Assembly (NCBI RefSeq): GCF_003674065.1
Contig: NZ_RDBE01000010.1
Coordinates: 289,578-353,577, forward strand
DNA from: Nocardioides mangrovicus
Lineage (GTDB): Bacteria > Actinomycetota > Actinomycetes > Propionibacteriales > Nocardioidaceae
Reading direction: 5' to 3'
Length of the DNA stretch: 64,000 bases
The notes beneath the pieces were generated by a model. That model ran no database searches, was not told the origin of the DNA, and saw only the letters and a list, made by a program, of their open reading frames with translations. Numbering within the stretch: the first letter of the stretch is position 1; each line of letters starts with the position of its first letter. A program made the position numbers and the translations under genes. Shown in pieces: positions 50,774-64,000 of the stretch.

Positions 50774-50846
50774 GGGCCTCTAGCTCAACCGGCAGAGCAG
50801 CGGACTTTTAATCCGCGGGTTCAGGGTTCGATCCCCTGGGGGCCCA
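50774..50846 (+). tRNA. tRNA-Lys (anticodon TTT)
   Basis: A complete 73-base cloverleaf: acceptor GGGCCTC with GGGGCCC (50839-50845), D-arm TAGCTCAACCGGCAGAGCA, anticodon stem GCGGA/TCCGC with loop CTTTTAA, five-base variable region and T-arm CAGGG-TTCGATC-CCCTG. The discriminator base is A at 50846; CCA is not encoded. The integrase gene runs into it from the right, so it is the probable attachment site. Confidence 0.97.
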
Positions 50847-52165
50847 CCCACTTGGGATCCGTCATCGGCGCTGGTCAGGCCTACGTCGTCGCGGTCAGGC
50901 GCGATCATCGCGCCATCGTCCGAGGGGTGACTGGTCACCGATTGGTCACAGCTTTCTCGTGAGACGAGCCCGTCGATGAGCTCAGCGGCCTCCCGTCCGG
51001 CGCCTGGGAGCAGGTGTCCGTAGATGTCGGAGGTGATGGCCAGGGTGGAGTGGCCCAGCATCTTCGACACCTTGGCGATGTCCATGCCTGAGCCGAGGGC
51101 GAGCGCGGCCCATCCGTGTCGTAGGTCGTGAAACCTAACCCGGCGCACTCCGGCCGCCTCGACCGCTCGGGTGAAGCTCTTGGTGATGAACTCAGGCCGG
51201 AGGGGGTCACCGTTCCCGCGGCAGAAGACCAGATCGTGGTCGCGGTAGGCCCGAACGAGCGCCCCCTGCTCGGACTCCTGGCGAGCTCGGACGCCGACTA
51301 GGCGTTCGACCATCCGCCTACTGACCTCGACCCGACGCGCCTCCCCGCACCTGGTCTTGGGTGGTCCGAAGACCAGACCTCTATGCCGAGCACCACAGAC
51401 CGCGCACGGCGCGGGTTCGTCATCGACCTGGACGATCTGCTGCCGCACGACGATCAGACCGGTCCAGAGGTCGATGTCCTTCCATCGGAGTCCGACGACC
51501 TCTCCCCTGCGCATGCCGGTCATCGCGGCGATCTCGAAGACGGGACCCAGAGGCGTGCCGTTGACGTGGTCCAAGAAGCGCCCCAGCTCGCTGGGGCTCC
51601 ACGGCTCGATCAGCGGTCTGCTTGCTGACGGGAGAGAGACGTTCGTGGCGGGATTGCTGCGCACCAGTCCGAGTCGGACCGCGTCATGCATCGCACTGCG
51701 CAACGTCGCATGTATCCGGCGGAGATTGGCCGGGGACATCGAGCGGCGGTGGCGCAGGTCGTCGTAGGCGCGCTGGATCGTGAAGGTGTCGAGGTCCGAG
51801 AGCCATTCGTCGCCCAGCATGGGGATGAGGTAGGAGGAGACGTGTCGCCGGTACTCGCGCATGGTCGTGCCGCGGACCTCCGCCGACTTGCGATCCAACC
51901 AGTCCTGCAGGTACGCGCCAAGAACCTGCCTTGCATCCGATCCAGAGCTGCGATAAGCGCCGGCCGCCATCGCCTCGACGAGGGCCGCCTCCGCGGCCGA
52001 CCGGGTCGGGAACCCGCCCCTCTTGATCTGTTCGCGTGCTTCACCGCGACGCGCGGACCTGTCGAAGACGAAGTACCACGAGCCGTGGTCCTTTCGGCAG
52101 GTAGATCCCGCGCCCTCCTTATCCCGGGTGAGACAGGGGCACCTCTTGAACACTGAGCCCCTCAT
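50780..52165 (-). CDS. int: Tyrosine-recombinase integrase
   Basis: A 461-residue phage-type integrase. The N-terminus has an unusual Cys-containing AP2-like arm-binding region (KRCPCLTRDKEGAGSTC), followed by an SAM-like core-binding domain (VLGAYLQDWLDRK) and the catalytic domain with Arg in TGMRRGEVVGLRW, HDLRHGW, and the final H...Y in LGHSTLAITSDIYGHLL. CGARHRG with two preceding Cys in the middle suggests an inserted zinc loop. The last about 22 codons read the tRNA-Lys antisense, so the C-terminus differs before and after excision. ATG 52165 overlaps the repressor stop (ATGA). Confidence 0.93.
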   Translation of the reverse strand: MRGSVFKRCPCLTRDKEGAGSTCRKDHGSWYFVFDRSARRGEAREQIKRGGFPTRSAAEAALVEAMAAGAYRSSGSDARQVLGAYLQDWLDRKSAEVRGTTMREYRRHVSSYLIPMLGDEWLSDLDTFTIQRAYDDLRHRRSMSPANLRRIHATLRSAMHDAVRLGLVRSNPATNVSLPSASRPLIEPWSPSELGRFLDHVNGTPLGPVFEIAAMTGMRRGEVVGLRWKDIDLWTGLIVVRQQIVQVDDEPAPCAVCGARHRGLVFGPPKTRCGEARRVEVSRRMVERLVGVRARQESEQGALVRAYRDHDLVFCRGNGDPLRPEFITKSFTRAVEAAGVRRVRFHDLRHGWAALALGSGMDIAKVSKMLGHSTLAITSDIYGHLLPGAGREAAELIDGLVSRESCDQSVTSHPSDDGAMIAPDRDDVGLTSADDGSQVGGPPGDRTLNPRIKSPLLCRLS

Positions 52166-56379: not shown

Positions 56380-57123
56380 GTGCCGCTGTTCTCACGCCGA
56401 CCCCGGAACCTCGTCCCGCAGGAGATCGTCGAGCAGCTCAACTCGTTCGGTAACGCGTCCTGGGAGGCGAAGCTGAACTCAGAGACCCTCGTCGACGACC
56501 GCTTCAACTGGCCTAACTTCTTCGCCAGGTTCCTGCCGGCCTATCAGACTGATCTCGCTCGGTCGATCGCTGAGCTGCATGCGGCGGCCGGAGCGGACGG
56601 GCTCGCCCGCTACGGCGGCTACCGCTTGGTGGCGGAGTTCGATGCCGCCTGCGAGGACCCCAATTACCTCGAGATGATGGACGCGGCCCTGGACCTCATG
56701 TACGAGCACGACTTGTCGAGCATCCATCTCACGGGCTATGAGCGAGATCGGTGGATGACTACGCGCGGCGACGTGAAAACGACGTTCGACCGCATCGTGG
56801 AGGTCGAACTCGACCCGAGGCTGGTGTCCGGGCTTGAGATCGAGCCGGGGCAGAGGATCATGCTCGCATTGATGGGTCCGAAGCCTCTAGACAACCAGTT
56901 CTGGATCGAACGGCGCGAAGACTCGATGTACGAAGGCTTCTCGATGCGTCAGTGGGACTCGGACGCGGGCGTGTTGACGCGATGCGAGGAGAAGGAGATC
57001 GGTTCCTCGGCGACGGTGGAGGAAGCGCTCGCGAGCCTTGGTCGCTACCTCCGTCGAGCCCCGTACTGGGCGCATTCCGCACTCGATCCGTTCTTCCCTG
57101 AGAAAAGGGAGACCTCAGGCTGA
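56380..57123 (+). CDS. Hypothetical protein of the element
   Basis: A 247-residue soluble protein from GTG 56380 (MPLFSRRPRNLVPQEIVEQL). It has no signal peptide or membrane segment, is acidic overall, and alternates helices with several Trp (ASWEAKLN, RFNWPNFFARFLPAYQ, RDRWMTTRGD). I recognise no family. Its N-terminal M-x-LF-x-R pattern resembles that of the Sel1 protein at 62522 (MGLFNRAK), and both flank the FtsK/WXG operon, so it may be functionally linked to it. Codon use is less GC-biased than in the chromosome part. Confidence 0.7.
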   Translation: MPLFSRRPRNLVPQEIVEQLNSFGNASWEAKLNSETLVDDRFNWPNFFARFLPAYQTDLARSIAELHAAAGADGLARYGGYRLVAEFDAACEDPNYLEMMDAALDLMYEHDLSSIHLTGYERDRWMTTRGDVKTTFDRIVEVELDPRLVSGLEIEPGQRIMLALMGPKPLDNQFWIERREDSMYEGFSMRQWDSDAGVLTRCEEKEIGSSATVEEALASLGRYLRRAPYWAHSALDPFFPEKRETSG

Positions 57124-57237: not shown

Positions 57238-57444
57238 CTACCTCAGAAGTTTGCTCGCGGCTTCGCATTGCTGGGATGCCTTGGCGAGCGCCTGCAGCAA
57301 TGTAGCTGCGGAGTTGCCCAGTGGCAGCAGCCGCTGCTTGTCGAACTGGTGGCGTTGAGGGTCCGACCAGGCGCTAGCAGCCTGGCTGGCGTTAGCGAGC
57401 TCGGCCCTCGCGCTCTCGACGCGACGCGTGGCTTCGTCAAGCAC
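57238..57444 (-). CDS. Short WXG-like helical-hairpin protein
   Basis: A 68-residue protein from GTG 57444, which shares its G with the stop of the coiled-coil gene (TAGTG). It is all helical with a central turn SAWSDPQRHQF. The W-x-D-x-x-K/R-x-Q-F pattern is shared with the WXG100-like protein of the same operon (ANWHDSRKQQF), with Trp and Phe eight residues apart in both. It looks like a shortened WXG-fold partner. Last gene of the operon. Confidence 0.7.
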   Translation of the reverse strand: MLDEATRRVESARAELANASQAASAWSDPQRHQFDKQRLLPLGNSAATLLQALAKASQQCEAASKLLR

Positions 57445-58148
57445 TAGTCGCCCCCCTGCAGGTCGCCCCAAAGTCGCTCACTTTCGGCCTTTCTGGTCTC
57501 GTCCAGCACGTAGTGCCGATTGGTCTCGTTCTGACGCTCGACCAGATCAGCGATACTGGCGTCCCCGCCAGACGTGCTGATGTCAAAGGCATGCGCCGCG
57601 TTCGAGAGATCCATCGCTGCTCCGTGACCGGCACCGAATATCTCGGCGCCTACCACTAGTCCGGTTCCGGCGCTGCGGAGATGCTGTTCGAACGTACCGC
57701 GCAGGGTGGCGATCTTGGCATCGAGATCCGCGAGAGCCGAGGATGCCAGTGAGGAATGTTCAGCCACCTTGCTCTCGATGCCGCGCATGACACCGCCTAG
57801 ATCATGATCGGCCTGCGCGATCAACTGAACCGCTCGGCGACTCTTGTCGAGCTGTTGTTTGCACTCCGCTGTGCGCGCGGTCAGAGCTGAGACCCGGGCT
57901 CGCAGCGGACCACAGTTGTCCCGGCACTGCGATAACGCCGACTTTGCGTTCTGGAGTTCTCGTTCAGCCCGCTGCAACTGGCTACGCCGCGACTCCACAG
58001 ACTGCTCGGCGCTACGGCGCTGCGCTGCCAAGTCCTTGCGGGCGAGCGCCATCGCCTCGCGCATGGTTTCCGCGAATCGTGTTACGCCGGTCCTCAGACT
58101 CTTGACGGCCGGGCGCTCGTTCTTGACCTGATCAGTCAATGCCGTCAC
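57444..58148 (-). CDS. Coiled-coil protein in FtsK/WXG operon
   Basis: A 234-residue protein dominated by a long coiled coil (residues about 30-130, with ESRRSQLQRAERELQNAKSA and RTAECKQQLDKSRRAVQL). A Gly/Ala-rich segment follows (GTGLVVGAEIFGAGHGAAM, about 173-191) that could be amphipathic or membrane-active. No family known to me. Its GTG overlaps the stop of the WXG100-like gene (GTGA) and its stop overlaps the next start, so all three are made together. It may be the effector or scaffold of the module. Confidence 0.75.
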   Translation of the reverse strand: MTALTDQVKNERPAVKSLRTGVTRFAETMREAMALARKDLAAQRRSAEQSVESRRSQLQRAERELQNAKSALSQCRDNCGPLRARVSALTARTAECKQQLDKSRRAVQLIAQADHDLGGVMRGIESKVAEHSSLASSALADLDAKIATLRGTFEQHLRSAGTGLVVGAEIFGAGHGAAMDLSNAAHAFDISTSGGDASIADLVERQNETNRHYVLDETRKAESERLWGDLQGGD

Positions 58149-58420
58149 ATCCTGACGTTTCGGATATCTTCAAGCTTGCTGGCGAGCTGCTTCAATCCCT
58201 TAGCCATCTGATCGACGTCACTGGACATGAAACTGTCGATCTTCTTCTGCAGGTCGCGATACTTGCCCTCGAACTGTTGCTTGCGCGAGTCGTGCCAGTT
58301 GGCTTGGGCGAGGGCTCCCTGCACCTTCTTTGAGGCCTTAGTCACCTCATCCCTGTAGGCAGCCAACGCGCCCGCCAGCTTCCGGATGTCTTGCGGGCTT
58401 GCATTGACCATGTCACTCAT
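58145..58420 (-). CDS. WXG100-like protein
   Basis: A 91-residue helix-turn-helix hairpin, the right length for WXG100 (about 100). The turn is ANWHDSRKQQF with Trp42; His-Asp replaces x-Gly, a known variation. WXG100 proteins dimerise and are usually secreted by type VII systems whose motor is an FtsK-like EccC/EssC ATPase, and here an FtsK-like gene lies immediately upstream. A TAGGAGTTCTTA RBS precedes ATG 58420. Confidence 0.82.
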   Translation of the reverse strand: MSDMVNASPQDIRKLAGALAAYRDEVTKASKKVQGALAQANWHDSRKQQFEGKYRDLQKKIDSFMSSDVDQMAKGLKQLASKLEDIRNVRM

Positions 58421-58474
58421 TAAGAACTCCTACCGTTGTGGTGGTCGCCGCCGAGAGTCGGCCGTTGATCAATG

Positions 58475-61400
58475 TCATTGTGTTGCGCGCGCTGGCGAGT
58501 TGCTCGGACGCTTGTCCCCTCTCAAGAGGGGGCGGTACCCGCGGACCCGCTTGGCCGTGCCTTTCAGACGGTCGCCGATCAGGAGCTGTCCGTATCGCAG
58601 CGGTGGCACATCGCCGTAGTCGCCGCTCACCAGCAAGAGATCTCGTTCGCCTACGGAGCTTCCGGCTATGCGCAGGGTTAACTCGTTGATGAGCTCGGGG
58701 CCGAGGCGCATCTCTACAGACCGCGCTCGGTCAGCGGCGACCACCACATGGATGCCAACCTCGGGACCGTTGATAAGAATGCGGGCGAGGTGGATCGCAG
58801 GGCCAGAACTATCCTCGGCTGCGTCATAAGGGTCGAACGGTGTGAGGGCCAGAGCTCGTTGCACCCCGCATAGGACGAGGAGTCTCCCTGGCGCTCCGAA
58901 CTCCTCGGCGGTCTGCCTGGCGTTTACGGCGTCGCGGAGGTCGCGCAGGGTGGCCTCCATCGCTCTCGACCTGAGGTAGCGCGCACTTGTCAGTTGAGCG
59001 ATTTCAGCGACACGTAGGTCGTCTTCAGCAGGGTCTTCACCAAGGAAGTCGATCAGGGTGACTTCGACCTCGCGCTGTCGAGCAGCTAGCAGCACGGAGT
59101 GGAGTGCTCCGCGTATAGCGGGATCGGTGGACTCTTCGTCGACGTTGTCGCCTAACAGGAGCAGGTTGGATCCCTGCATTCGTGAGAGAACGATGGATTC
59201 GGTGTCGGCGAGACTGAAGGGCTCGCCGATGTCGATCGTGAATCGCCCTCCCACGATCGGATCCATCCGCGGCGAAGGTCGCGAGACAGCGGCGTCCCCA
59301 TCGAAGACCCGCGGACGGCGTGTCCACCCGAAGGCCGCGGCTTTGGACGCGAGGTCTCTGAGGATGGCGCTGCGGTCGGCGGTCGGCACGTAGAGCCCTT
59401 GGAACGGCTGGTTCCTCGACTCCTCACCTCGAGAGGGGTTGAATAACCCCTCTCCTGTCTTAGTAAGCAGTCGTGTTGCCTTGTTGCTCTCACCCATGAC
59501 GATCTCCGCGTCGTACTCGTTGCACATGAATGCCACGCGCTGGGGGAGCAAGGTCAACGTCGGGCGGTCCATTGCTGGCATGTTGGAGAGAGTCTGGGAA
59601 GCCACGACGACATGCGCACCCGAGAACGGGCCCATCCTGACGATGTTGCTGAATGCCGCGAAAGCTGCAAGACCGATATCGTCGGCTTCCTCGAAGAGCT
59701 CGTGAAACTCGTCGACAATCACGACGATCCGCGCGAGCTTCTCGCCGGTCGTCGCGCGGTACTCGGTGATGTTCGCTATGCCTGTGCCATGGTGCTTCAT
59801 GAGTTGTGCGCGGCGTTGAATCTCCCGCTCGATGCCGACGAGGACTGCAAGCGAGAACTCACGTTCTGAGCGGATAGAGACCATGCGCGCGTGAGGAAGG
59901 TTCTCGTACACCTTGAACTCGACGCCGTGCTTGGCGTCGATGAGATATAGCTCGAGCTCCTCTGGCGAGTAAAGCATCGCCAAGGTGAGGATCATGGAGT
60001 GAAGCGAGGTGGTCTTGCCCGAGCGAGGCAGGCCGACCATGATCGCACCGCCCGCGACCTCGGTCGACGAGAAATACATCGAGGTCACCCCCTGCGCACC
60101 GGAGCGGCCGATGGGTGCGACGGCGTTATTGACGGTGGACCCCTGCCACCAAGAGTCTGGATCGGTGGACAACGCCGGCCTCGCTTGGTCGAGGTCGGGG
60201 AGGATCCCCACGCGCGCTCGGTTGAAGACGGGCAACAAGGAGTCCAGGGTGACCGCGGCAGGGTTCGCCTGAACCTCTCGAACCGCTGCGCCGATGCGGG
60301 TAAGGAGTCGCGCAAAGCCCGTCTCGGGGTTGCCATCGGCATCGAACACGAGTGGCGCCGGGGGGTCGGGGCGGAGATATAGAGCCACCTTGCCGACGGG
60401 CGCGCCAAGTTCGAGCCGCGCAACTGCGCCTCTCGCCGGGTCCACAAGAGGCGGCGCCCGCAGGATAACTGGCTTCAGGTTCAGCAGTCCGTCCTGGTTG
60501 CCGCCGGTGACCTCGACGGTCAACTTCTGCCCGGCGCTGAGACCATTCGGCCAGCGACCCGGGCTGAGGGCCTGAAGCTCGGACAAGTCGATCGTGCCGC
60601 GCTCGCCGTCGGGAAGCGAGAGGACGGCGTGCGTGGAGGTCGAGCTGACGACCGTCCCTGAATATTTGGCTCGGGGAGCGGATTCAAACGGTTCACGGAC
60701 CGGTTGCAAGGTGTGCCCGAAGTCGACCTTTTGCATGCTGCGAATCAGACGGTTGATCTCGATGTCGTCGTATGGCTTGGCCCTCTCCACTTCCTTGTTG
60801 TACTGCAGGACCGTGTAGACGCCGCAACGCGGACCGTTCTCAATCAGACTCAGAAGCTGTTTCGCCGCCTTGGTCGAGAAGCCGGTCGGGTAATCGAAGA
60901 TGGCGATTAGGCGATAGGGCTGCGCAACCTCGCCAGCGTGCTCGTTGTAGTCGTCGATCGACTCGAACTGTCCTCGGAGATACTTGGAGATAACGACCTC
61001 GAGGTGGTCGGAAAGATCGTCCATAAGTCGTTCGATATCCCGCTCGGTGGTCCAAGTCTTCTCATCGACCAGTTGCCCGTCGTAGTCCGCCAAATGGCGA
61101 AACCCGGCGACCGACTGACCGAGAGCGACCGGGTCAACAGCCTTGACATGAAGGGCACCCGGTGGGACAGCGGCGAAGAGGCGGAGCAGGAGAGATTTCA
61201 CCAGGTCGATTGCCTGCTCCCGATCGCCGACGTCGGCTCCTACCGACAATCCGGCCTCGAACGGGAACGAAATGAGTGCAGGGATGGGGAGGACGCTGAG
61301 AGCCTCAGGCAGTTCGGGGACCAGTTCGCCGAGCCGGATCAGTCGCTGGACCTCGTCGACTGTCGATGGTGAGTCCCAGCGGGGATCGGACCAGCCTGCA

Positions 61401-62056
61401 CCGGAAAGGTTCAGGCTCACCTCCACGTCACTGATGGTCTTGTTCAAATCGTCTGTAAGTTCGCGCTGGCGCGCCCGTTGCTTCTCGCGCTCCGCCTGCA
61501 GGAGTACATCGACCGACGCAGACACTTCGCTGACCCGCTCAGAGATCCAGTGCTGGGTCAGAGACGGGATCGCACGGTGAATCAGGTCCAAGCGATCGAG
61601 GTCCTGCCACACTGCGTCGGGGACTTGGGGACAACTTGAAGCTCTCTTGAACACTTTCGCGCTCCACGCCTTGTGCTCAGCCTGGAACTTGCCAGCGGTG
61701 TCGTTGACCCGCGAGAAGATTGCCTTCCACTGCTCGACTGCTTCCCACAGAGTGGAAGGCAGGTCTCCGGGCGGCATGTGCTTGATGCGTACGCCCTCAT
61801 AGGAGCCGAACTTTGCACGCAGGATTGAGCCGTAGGAGCGAGCAGCGCCAAGTTCCGGTGCTGCCTCGACAGCACGGCTCGCCTGTTCGCGCGCGTCGGC
61901 CTCGGCGCTCGCCATGCCCGTCCGGCGGCTCATGCCCAGTGCCTCGATCGCTGCGCAATCATCGCGGTAGGAGCCTTGAAGCCGAACAGTTTCGTTCAGC
62001 ATGCGGCGCATGAGTTGGTCCGCGCTGACTCGCGGGCCGGCGTCTGGGTCACTCAC
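58475..62056 (-). CDS. Large FtsK/EccC-like ATPase with S1/OB-like insertion, no membrane segments
   Basis: A 1193-residue protein. Residues about 1-240 are helical, with a charged coil near 185-210. A first FtsK-like domain (about 255-450) lacks a P-loop. About 460-525 (GTVVSSTSTHAVLSLPDGERG, then LSAGQKLTVEV) looks like an S1/OB fold. The central domain (about 560-900) is an intact FtsK ATPase: Walker A GLPRSGKTTSL near 673, DAKHGVEFKVYENLPH, Walker B IVVIVDEFHELFEE near 775. The C-terminal domain (about 975-1190) is ATPase-like with a degenerate LLLLGDNVDEES loop. EccC/EssC also has serial ATPase domains but starts with membrane helices, absent here. GTG 62056 follows GAGGGCAGCCC. Confidence 0.85.
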   Translation of the reverse strand: MSDPDAGPRVSADQLMRRMLNETVRLQGSYRDDCAAIEALGMSRRTGMASAEADAREQASRAVEAAPELGAARSYGSILRAKFGSYEGVRIKHMPPGDLPSTLWEAVEQWKAIFSRVNDTAGKFQAEHKAWSAKVFKRASSCPQVPDAVWQDLDRLDLIHRAIPSLTQHWISERVSEVSASVDVLLQAEREKQRARQRELTDDLNKTISDVEVSLNLSGAGWSDPRWDSPSTVDEVQRLIRLGELVPELPEALSVLPIPALISFPFEAGLSVGADVGDREQAIDLVKSLLLRLFAAVPPGALHVKAVDPVALGQSVAGFRHLADYDGQLVDEKTWTTERDIERLMDDLSDHLEVVISKYLRGQFESIDDYNEHAGEVAQPYRLIAIFDYPTGFSTKAAKQLLSLIENGPRCGVYTVLQYNKEVERAKPYDDIEINRLIRSMQKVDFGHTLQPVREPFESAPRAKYSGTVVSSTSTHAVLSLPDGERGTIDLSELQALSPGRWPNGLSAGQKLTVEVTGGNQDGLLNLKPVILRAPPLVDPARGAVARLELGAPVGKVALYLRPDPPAPLVFDADGNPETGFARLLTRIGAAVREVQANPAAVTLDSLLPVFNRARVGILPDLDQARPALSTDPDSWWQGSTVNNAVAPIGRSGAQGVTSMYFSSTEVAGGAIMVGLPRSGKTTSLHSMILTLAMLYSPEELELYLIDAKHGVEFKVYENLPHARMVSIRSEREFSLAVLVGIEREIQRRAQLMKHHGTGIANITEYRATTGEKLARIVVIVDEFHELFEEADDIGLAAFAAFSNIVRMGPFSGAHVVVASQTLSNMPAMDRPTLTLLPQRVAFMCNEYDAEIVMGESNKATRLLTKTGEGLFNPSRGEESRNQPFQGLYVPTADRSAILRDLASKAAAFGWTRRPRVFDGDAAVSRPSPRMDPIVGGRFTIDIGEPFSLADTESIVLSRMQGSNLLLLGDNVDEESTDPAIRGALHSVLLAARQREVEVTLIDFLGEDPAEDDLRVAEIAQLTSARYLRSRAMEATLRDLRDAVNARQTAEEFGAPGRLLVLCGVQRALALTPFDPYDAAEDSSGPAIHLARILINGPEVGIHVVVAADRARSVEMRLGPELINELTLRIAGSSVGERDLLLVSGDYGDVPPLRYGQLLIGDRLKGTAKRVRGYRPLLRGDKRPSNSPARATQ

Positions 62057-62521
62057 GGGCTGCCCTCGGATCTTCGCGGTTCGCTTCTACAGGATTTGGG
62101 CCGCGCGGAACACTCGGCGCCGGCTGGCACGCTACGTCTTCCCGGTGCTGACAATCCGTGTTTTGGCGGTTCTGATTCTGCCTGCTCTTCGCGGCCACAG
62201 GTCGCGTTCCATCGACTCGACTGGGCGAGGGGGCGCCGACTACGCGATGCATTTGACTGGATGCTCCAGCAGAGCCCTTGCACGTCGTCTAGGCCAGCCA
62301 GATGGATAAATCGGTCGTAGCGCACCACGGTTGGGCATCTGCAGCCAAGCTCTGGACGGCCGTGTAATCGTGCGCAGGACTCGCTCCATTGTCTGCGCAT
62401 CATGGGTCGCTGAATGGATGACCCGGCGCACTCAGCGGTGCGCGTGCCCGCAACAGGAACCCACGACCGCAACCGGATCACCCATCGGTGGTCCTCGGTG
62501 CCGACTTGGAAGGTCACGAAG
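62057..62521. other. Divergent intergenic region between FtsK-like and Sel1 genes
   Basis: These 465 bases hold no frame I would call a gene; the longer open frames lack good starts, RBS and recognisable features. It presumably contains the promoters of the two divergent units. No clear -35/-10 pair or operator dyad stood out. Confidence 0.5.
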
Positions 62522-63799
62522 ATGGGATTATTCAACCGCGCCAAGGCGCAGGAGTCCGTCGCCAGATCAGCAGGACACCCGCGACCCCCGGCGGTGGACT
62601 GGGCTGACATCGACAGCGTCCGAGCCGAGTGGCCGCGCGCCGAACTCGAACCCAGCCGCGACCTGCAGCAGTGGCAACGTGCCGTTGCAATATATGAGGC
62701 GCGCGACGATTACTCGTCGATGATGCAGTGCGCGACGATGCTCGGCAACGCACTCGCGCATTCGCTGTACGGAACGGGGATTCTGAGGGGCAGCGATCTC
62801 CCCGAGACAGCACACAAGGTCCTCTACTGCTCTCTATGCCCGCCACCCGACGGCCAGACCTTCGCCGACAGCGCTCAGCGAGCAGCGCGACTCGCCCTGA
62901 CGGTCATCCGCGAGAACGGTTGGCGTCCTCCATCGATGGGCGGGACCGAGGGCTACTTCGAGGCCCTGATCATGGACCGCGGCAATCGCATGCTCCTAAG
63001 TTCAGCCATCGGACCCGCGGACGCGCCTTGGAGCGGGGATCTAAGGGCGTTCTTCGAGGTCCCCCCACAGCCGATGGTGGGCGAACTTCCGCCCCACGGC
63101 CAGCCGGCTGGCGAGGTCGTCGCACGGATTGCGGAAACGCTCCGACAGGCCGAGGACGGCGACCAAGGCAGCACCCTCTACGCAGACGCTATGGCTCGCC
63201 ATGCCGCGGGCGATCCGCACGGTGCGCTCGAGCTCTACGGGCAAGCGGGGCGCCTAGGCTCGGTGGAGGCCATGGCAGCAGCGGGTGACCTTGCGAGCGA
63301 CCTGGGTCGGACCGAGGAGTCCGATTTCTGGTACGAGACTGCAGCCAGTGCTGGCCACACTGTCTCAATGTTCAACACGGGCGCAGCAGCCTATCGCCGG
63401 CAGGATCTGGCGACCGCAATGCAATGGTTTCAGCGGTCCGCCGAAGCCGGCAACGTGGAGGGCTATGCGGCGCTGACACAGCTGTCGAGCGAGGCCGGTG
63501 ATGAACGATCCGAGGCATATTGGGCCCGGCTCGGAGCTGAGGCAGGCCATACCTTCTGCATGGGCCGCCACGGGCTCCTTCTGGCGCGCGAGGCAGACGG
63601 TGACGTCCCGACACTTCGTCGTGCTCGAGATGTCGTGGAGCAGGCTGCCGATCGGGGTGACATCCAGGCTGCCACGTTGGCGGTCGATCTCAACCACCAA
63701 CTTAGCGACGCGCCCCGCGCGCAGCGGTTTGTGACAATGGTCGTGCAGAACGGCGATGCCGAGGCGAACGATCGCCTGCGGCGATTCGGCTACCTCTGA
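62522..63799 (+). CDS. Sel1-like repeat protein
   Basis: A 425-residue soluble protein. The C-terminal half (about 215-410) is a run of Sel1-like helical repeats, seen as AAGDPHGALELYGQAGRLGSVEAMAAAGD, then EESDFWYETAASAGHTVSMFN, LATAMQWFQRSAEAGNVEGYA and SEAYWARLGAEAGHTFCMG. Such repeats make protein-binding solenoids. The N-terminal 200 residues (MGLFNRAKAQES, VLYCSLCPPPDG) are of unknown fold. ATG 62522 is chosen for the LFNR start and an upstream GGAAGG. Divergent from the FtsK/WXG operon, it may regulate or adapt it. Confidence 0.75.
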   Translation: MGLFNRAKAQESVARSAGHPRPPAVDWADIDSVRAEWPRAELEPSRDLQQWQRAVAIYEARDDYSSMMQCATMLGNALAHSLYGTGILRGSDLPETAHKVLYCSLCPPPDGQTFADSAQRAARLALTVIRENGWRPPSMGGTEGYFEALIMDRGNRMLLSSAIGPADAPWSGDLRAFFEVPPQPMVGELPPHGQPAGEVVARIAETLRQAEDGDQGSTLYADAMARHAAGDPHGALELYGQAGRLGSVEAMAAAGDLASDLGRTEESDFWYETAASAGHTVSMFNTGAAAYRRQDLATAMQWFQRSAEAGNVEGYAALTQLSSEAGDERSEAYWARLGAEAGHTFCMGRHGLLLAREADGDVPTLRRARDVVEQAADRGDIQAATLAVDLNHQLSDAPRAQRFVTMVVQNGDAEANDRLRRFGYL

Positions 63800-64000
63800 T
63801 TCTCGGCCAGAAACGGACCCAACTGAGAGCCGGCGTTCCGCGGGGTTTGTATCGCTGACAAGGGCTGGTCGCCCGGGTCCGGCGCCGGAGCTGCGGGCCG
63901 GTCTCGTCCGTAGAGGTCGGGCTCGAACATTGATAACGCATACCGGCCGTGCACGGACGGGCTCCAGCTCATTCGAGCGAGCTTGTGAGCAATCCGGGGC
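63790..64000 (-). CDS. C-terminal end of an unidentified gene (cut by window edge)
   Basis: A minus-strand frame is open from the window end to TAG at 63790 (70 codons). It contains RIAHKLARMSW, RYALSMFEPDLYGRDRP and a Pro/Ala-rich tail. It overlaps the end of the Sel1 gene by 10 bases, as convergent genes often do. It could alternatively start at the internal ATG 63972. No family is recognisable from the tail. Confidence 0.45.
   Translation of the reverse strand, partial: PRIAHKLARMSWSPSVHGRYALSMFEPDLYGRDRPAAPAPDPGDQPLSAIQTPRNAGSQLGPFLAENQR

Follow-up and report, generated by a model that had tools for sequence, protein, structure and literature searches.

A four-gene operon assigned by sequence to the mobile T7SS class, with a soluble EccC-like ATPase, on an integrative element of Nocardioides mangrovicus

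In the window, a stretch of 64,000 nucleotides from Nocardioides mangrovicus, four tightly linked minus-strand genes at positions 57238-62056 form an operon which, on sequence grounds, is a stand-alone member of the class described as 'mobile T7SS' and lies in a defence-loaded element. A sequence-only reading had suggested that a minimal module resembling type VII systems is carried on mobile DNA. This is borne out, and it is not a new idea, because comparable units have been called mobile or minimal T7SS in earlier comparative genomics (PMC3482391, PMC4978471, PMC11090510). The class is known mainly from sequences and the crystal structure of one WXG partner, and no functional test of it was found in titles and abstracts of the open-licence literature. 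Here, the compact four-gene version, having no kinase, phosphatase or CARF gene in the operon, represents a convenient object for studying the role of the membrane-less motor and for deciding if the WXG proteins serve as adaptors or are themselves the cargo.

The ORF coordinates confirm the four linked genes for an ATPase, a WXG100-like protein, a coiled-coil protein and a 68-residue WXG-like protein (Table 1), as well as the start-to-stop overlap of the last three, which amounts to 4 nt (GTGA) between the WXG and the coiled-coil gene and to 1 nt (TAGTG) between the latter and the small WXG-like gene. The ATPase gene is followed by the WXG gene after a gap of 54 nt. The small WXG-like protein would comprise 77 aa if an upstream TTG is taken as start. 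All four frames are open and the third codon positions of the operon are coding-like.

Table 1. Coordinates of the operon, of the domains of its ATPase and of features of the element and the host (window positions unless a contig or locus is given).
Feature	Position	Strand	Description	Basis
FtsK/EccC-like ATPase gene	62056-58475	-	1193 aa, soluble, EssC/EccC-like	Pfam, hydropathy, motif scan
N-terminal degenerate FtsK-type domain, res 235-430	60767..61354	-	no Walker A	hhalign to EccC ATPase domains, E 6e-8, 1e-7
Candidate OB/S1-fold insert, res ~455-535	60452..60694	-		gap in 20 aligned relatives; weak S1 matches
Active middle ATPase domain (predicted), res 600-905	59342..60259	-	best match EccC D1	hhalign, E 1e-36
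Walker A, res 675-682	60011..60034	-	GLPRSGKT, the only one	motif scan
Walker B, res 778-784	59705..59725	-	VVIVDEF	motif scan
C-terminal degenerate FtsK-type domain, res 915-1175	58532..59314	-	no Walker A	hhalign, motif scan
WXG100/HP0062-like hairpin protein gene	58420-58145	-	91 aa, motif WHDSRKQQF	
Coiled-coil protein gene	58148-57444	-	234 aa, no enzymatic domain recognised	
Small WXG-like protein gene	57444-57238	-	68 aa from GTG, motif WSDPQRHQF	
Left attachment repeat	50801..50851	+	in 3' part of tRNA-Lys(ttt)	near-identical copy at C19:378619-378669
Tyrosine integrase	50780..52165	-	beside left end of element	Pfam
M(G/P)(L/I)F(S/N)-start protein	56380-57123	+		
M(G/P)(L/I)F(S/N)-start protein	62414-63799	+	internal start	
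M(G/P)(L/I)F(S/N)-start protein	C19:354258-354686		= L002:1258-1686	
M(G/P)(L/I)F(S/N)-start protein	C19:355205-355720		= L002:2205-2720	
EccC/EssC-like gene with membrane helices	L112:5158-10223 (C19:535157-540222)		WXG100 gene adjacent	

The sole strong Pfam match in the operon is that of the ATPase to FtsK_SpoIIIE (E 1.3e-23). Both regions flanking the active domain are FtsK-type domains as well (HHalign, E about 1e-7), and the single Walker A lies in the middle one of the three, so that one domain is predicted to be active. By motif scan, the window ATPase has exactly one Walker A, as do 29 of 32 relatives, L067, L100 and L111 being those in which the pattern missed it, while nine EccC-type proteins have three (6 proteins), two (2 proteins) or one (the host's own). 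L100 and L111 are family-like ATPases in which no Walker A motif at all is recognised. That the ATPase has no membrane helices, as had been read from the sequence, is supported by a maximum 19-residue hydropathy of 1.53 (relatives 1.34-1.99) versus 2.05-2.72 in the nine EccC-type proteins.

A profile built from 14 ATPase relatives matches EccC at 2.9e-65 versus 1.2e-28 for the FtsK translocase. A tree of the active domain sets the nine EccC-type rows apart as one clade (100/100) and groups the window ATPase with L070 (100/100). In contrast to the FtsK/SpoIIIE DNA translocases, the window ATPase has neither N-terminal membrane helices nor a gamma (winged-helix) domain, the latter not being reported by Pfam. 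A DNA-translocating function, which had been offered as one option, is poorly supported, because the family is nearer to EccC than to FtsK and Pfam detects no gamma domain. A reading as a DNA-handling module for capture or restriction would have the FtsK-like ring move invader DNA and draw its nucleases from the restriction genes nearby. The restriction genes on the element, the CoCoNuT association (PMC11090510) and the HerA/FtsK capture systems of the literature as well as matches of the ATPase domain to SspH and mad8 speak for this rather improbable reading; however, the ATPase is nearer to EccC than to FtsK or HerA, Pfam finds no gamma/winged-helix domain in its C-terminal part and a nuclease is missing from the four genes.

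The main peculiarity of the ATPase is an insert ahead of the active domain, which is probably lineage-specific and likely of OB/S1 fold. Residues about 455-535 are missing from all 20 aligned relatives, and the codon positions of this segment have a coding look. It matches the S1 domain of PNPase weakly (E 0.014). A single-sequence AF2 model, of low confidence (mean pLDDT 47.7), displays an OB-like strand order, and Foldseek returned mostly OB folds of S1, CSD, IF1 and PAN for it, none of them at E <= 0.001. On a speculative reading, which we consider quite improbable, such an insert ahead of the active ring would convert the soluble motor derived from T7SS into an unfoldase that senses RNA or gates its substrates in a PAN-like manner; a secretion ATPase would then have given up secretion and been rebuilt for defence.

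The sequence-only reading had further noticed that both WXG-like proteins share the motif W-x-D-x-x-(K/R)-x-Q-F, and this is confirmed in the two versions given in Table 1. For the 91-aa protein, the Pfam WXG100 match (7.4e-5) lies under the Pfam cut-off, and the best solved match of the WXG profile is Helicobacter HP0062 (2.3e-13), followed by EsxB (1.3e-6). The crystal structure of HP0062 of Helicobacter pylori has been determined (PMC3397514). The likeness to HP0062/HP0066 extends to a W-x-D hairpin gene clustered with an FtsK gene, HP0066 being likened by gene clustering alone (PMC3397514, PMC4978471). No alignment was obtained between the small 68-aa protein and the 73-aa gene of L065.

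Among 72,556 plasmids, just two matches to the 91-aa protein were obtained at E <= 0.01, and this pairing exceeds chance since both fall on the plasmids that carry the two best ATPase relatives. In the 32 relative loci, with crude gene calls around the ATPases, W-x-D/G hairpin ORFs on the same strand account for 16/319 ORFs near the ATPase versus 4/1264 elsewhere (Fisher p 1.2e-8, an optimistic value because some of the loci had been viewed before the motif was picked and related ones are not independent of each other). Such ORFs are found near the ATPase in 14 of the 32 loci, at least one of which (L069) looks like chance.

The 234-aa protein owes its coiled-coil label to matches to coiled-coil-type families and to one long helix in a single-sequence AF2 model. 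A genome search gave weak coiled-coil matches only and no demonstrated homologue. In L065 and L072 its position is taken by longer proteins, to neither of which pairwise homology was found and whose extra C-terminal region it does not have. A ParB/Srx-like character of this region, seen by eye in L065 and L072, was unsupported by Pfam and was dropped. This shorter form, together with the absence of the operon from congeners, would fit a decaying or non-functional cassette, which is nevertheless very doubtful given the open frames, the kept overlaps, the intact catalytic motifs and the coding-like third positions.

Among the known systems, the 'mobile T7SS' of Zhang et al. (2012) comes with a solo WXG protein and a YueA-like ATPase of three FtsK/HerA domains, only the middle one of which is active (PMC3482391, table note 6). 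The window operon shares the three FtsK-type domains with a predicted active middle, the solo WXG protein and the location on mobile DNA. In contrast, its host is an actinobacterium, a phylum that this note does not list for the variant, and it adds a coiled-coil protein, a second WXG-like protein and the OB-like insert. Similarly, CoCoNuT loci with a soluble EssC-like ATPase, two WXG100 proteins and a coiled coil have been reported by Bell et al. (2024). With their Type III-A extension the operon has in common the soluble EssC homologue, whose central domain alone is predicted to be active, two WXG100-type proteins and a coiled-coil protein. However, Pfam recognised no vWA/TerY, kinase, phosphatase, CARF or McrBC in the ORFs neighbouring the window unit, no nuclease domain is recognised in its coiled-coil protein, and the N-terminal coiled coil of the ATPase is not demonstrated in the window protein (PMC11090510). 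T7SSa EccC and T7SSb EssC have homologous ATPase domains and a WXG100 partner, but differ from the window ATPase by their membrane helices and by (mostly) three Walker A motifs instead of one.

The operon is carried on mobile DNA, as is evident from a direct repeat at a tRNA-Lys gene, an integrase and the absence of the operon from 23 further genomes in the genus. The tRNA-Lys(ttt) was located at 50774-50848 by ARAGORN, the repeat matches over 34 bp, one mismatch and 16 bp, and 38.24 kb lie between its copies. A joined-flank search for the empty site in the same 23 genomes yielded only matches to the tRNA or to parts of a single flank. To the right of the window, the element encodes an Eco57I-type methylase with a helicase/T5orf172 protein, a REase-ARP protein and an OGG-like, a GmrSD-type and a DUF4062 protein. 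The genes around the operon include four whose products, otherwise unlike each other, have an N-terminal M(G/P)(L/I)F(S/N) start in common, which occurs in 4/33 element genes versus 0/80 sampled host genes and 2/480 genes in relative loci; this serves as a lead only, because the pattern was chosen post hoc.

The partners EccB/D/E or EssA/B of the canonical T7SSa and T7SSb, already noted as lacking by the sequence-only reading, were not recognised beyond position 64000 either, among those ORFs that were scanned up to the right end of the element. About 184 kb from the operon, on its own contig, an EccC/EssC-like ATPase with membrane helices adjoins a WXG100 gene, probably as a type VII-like locus of the host itself. 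The soluble ATPase could be a secretion accessory, handing the WXG proteins and the coiled-coil cargo to a host membrane type VII machine encoded elsewhere. This locus would fit, as would the description of the class in the literature as a secretion system of mobile or minimal type (PMC3482391, PMC4978471). The proposal is nonetheless unlikely, considering that the class is also reported from lineages beyond those that usually have a T7SS, e.g., Helicobacter (PMC3482391; the 2016 Helicobacter pan-genome paper, PMC4978471), that a Pfam search with weak controls did not find EccD in the host, and that a C-terminal YxxxD/E was not seen in either WXG-like protein.

ATPase relatives are patchy in Actinomycetota, where 13 of 397 sampled genomes, the window's own included, have one at E <= 1e-60, and are also present on Caballeronia and Deinococcus plasmids. 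A scan of genome contigs gave one weak locus, and three scans of viral contigs yielded no relative, so that the ATPase does not seem to be an ordinary phage gene. On a Rhodococcus plasmid (L065), TerD is fused to the N-terminus of the ATPase (L065:7579-8100, PF02342, 1.6e-21), with further TerD genes nearby, and on the Caballeronia plasmid vWA, WXG100, a Card1-like CARF nuclease, PP2C and a kinase are neighbours. From this context, namely the restriction genes and relatives beside TerD, CARF/kinase and E1-JAB genes, the earlier suggestion of a conflict system is plausible, the evidence being one of association.

EsxB is known to bind an EccC ATPase domain. By analogy to EccC and FtsK, the middle domain of the window ATPase may mediate assembly of a hexamer in the cytosol, and the degenerate outer domains might be docking platforms for the WXG hairpins. 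The motor would then pull on or remodel a client, either the coiled-coil protein or another one associated with WXG proteins. The unit would be a machine for handling proteins in conflict with phages or under stress, and not a DNA pump. The positions of relatives next to HSP70/DnaJ/GrpE, ThiF/JAB, Sel1 and kinase genes are counted for this favoured reading, in which the WXG proteins are adaptors of a soluble motor, and we would give it an even chance.

The closest relative of the ATPase (L070:6929-9493, 45% over the middle domain) stops before D3, has no recognised WXG neighbour and is flanked by tandem paralogues of unknown function. The ATPases of L109 (L109:3055-5628), L107 and L110 adjoin ThiF (E1-like), JAB and Sel1-repeat genes, and a possible E2-like gene was noticed there by eye. 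In L068, L083, L084, L103 and L106, the ATPase lies in several cases beside DnaK/DnaJ/GrpE-type (HSP70) genes and is accompanied by small hairpin-like ORFs, about 86 aa long, with few or no W residues.
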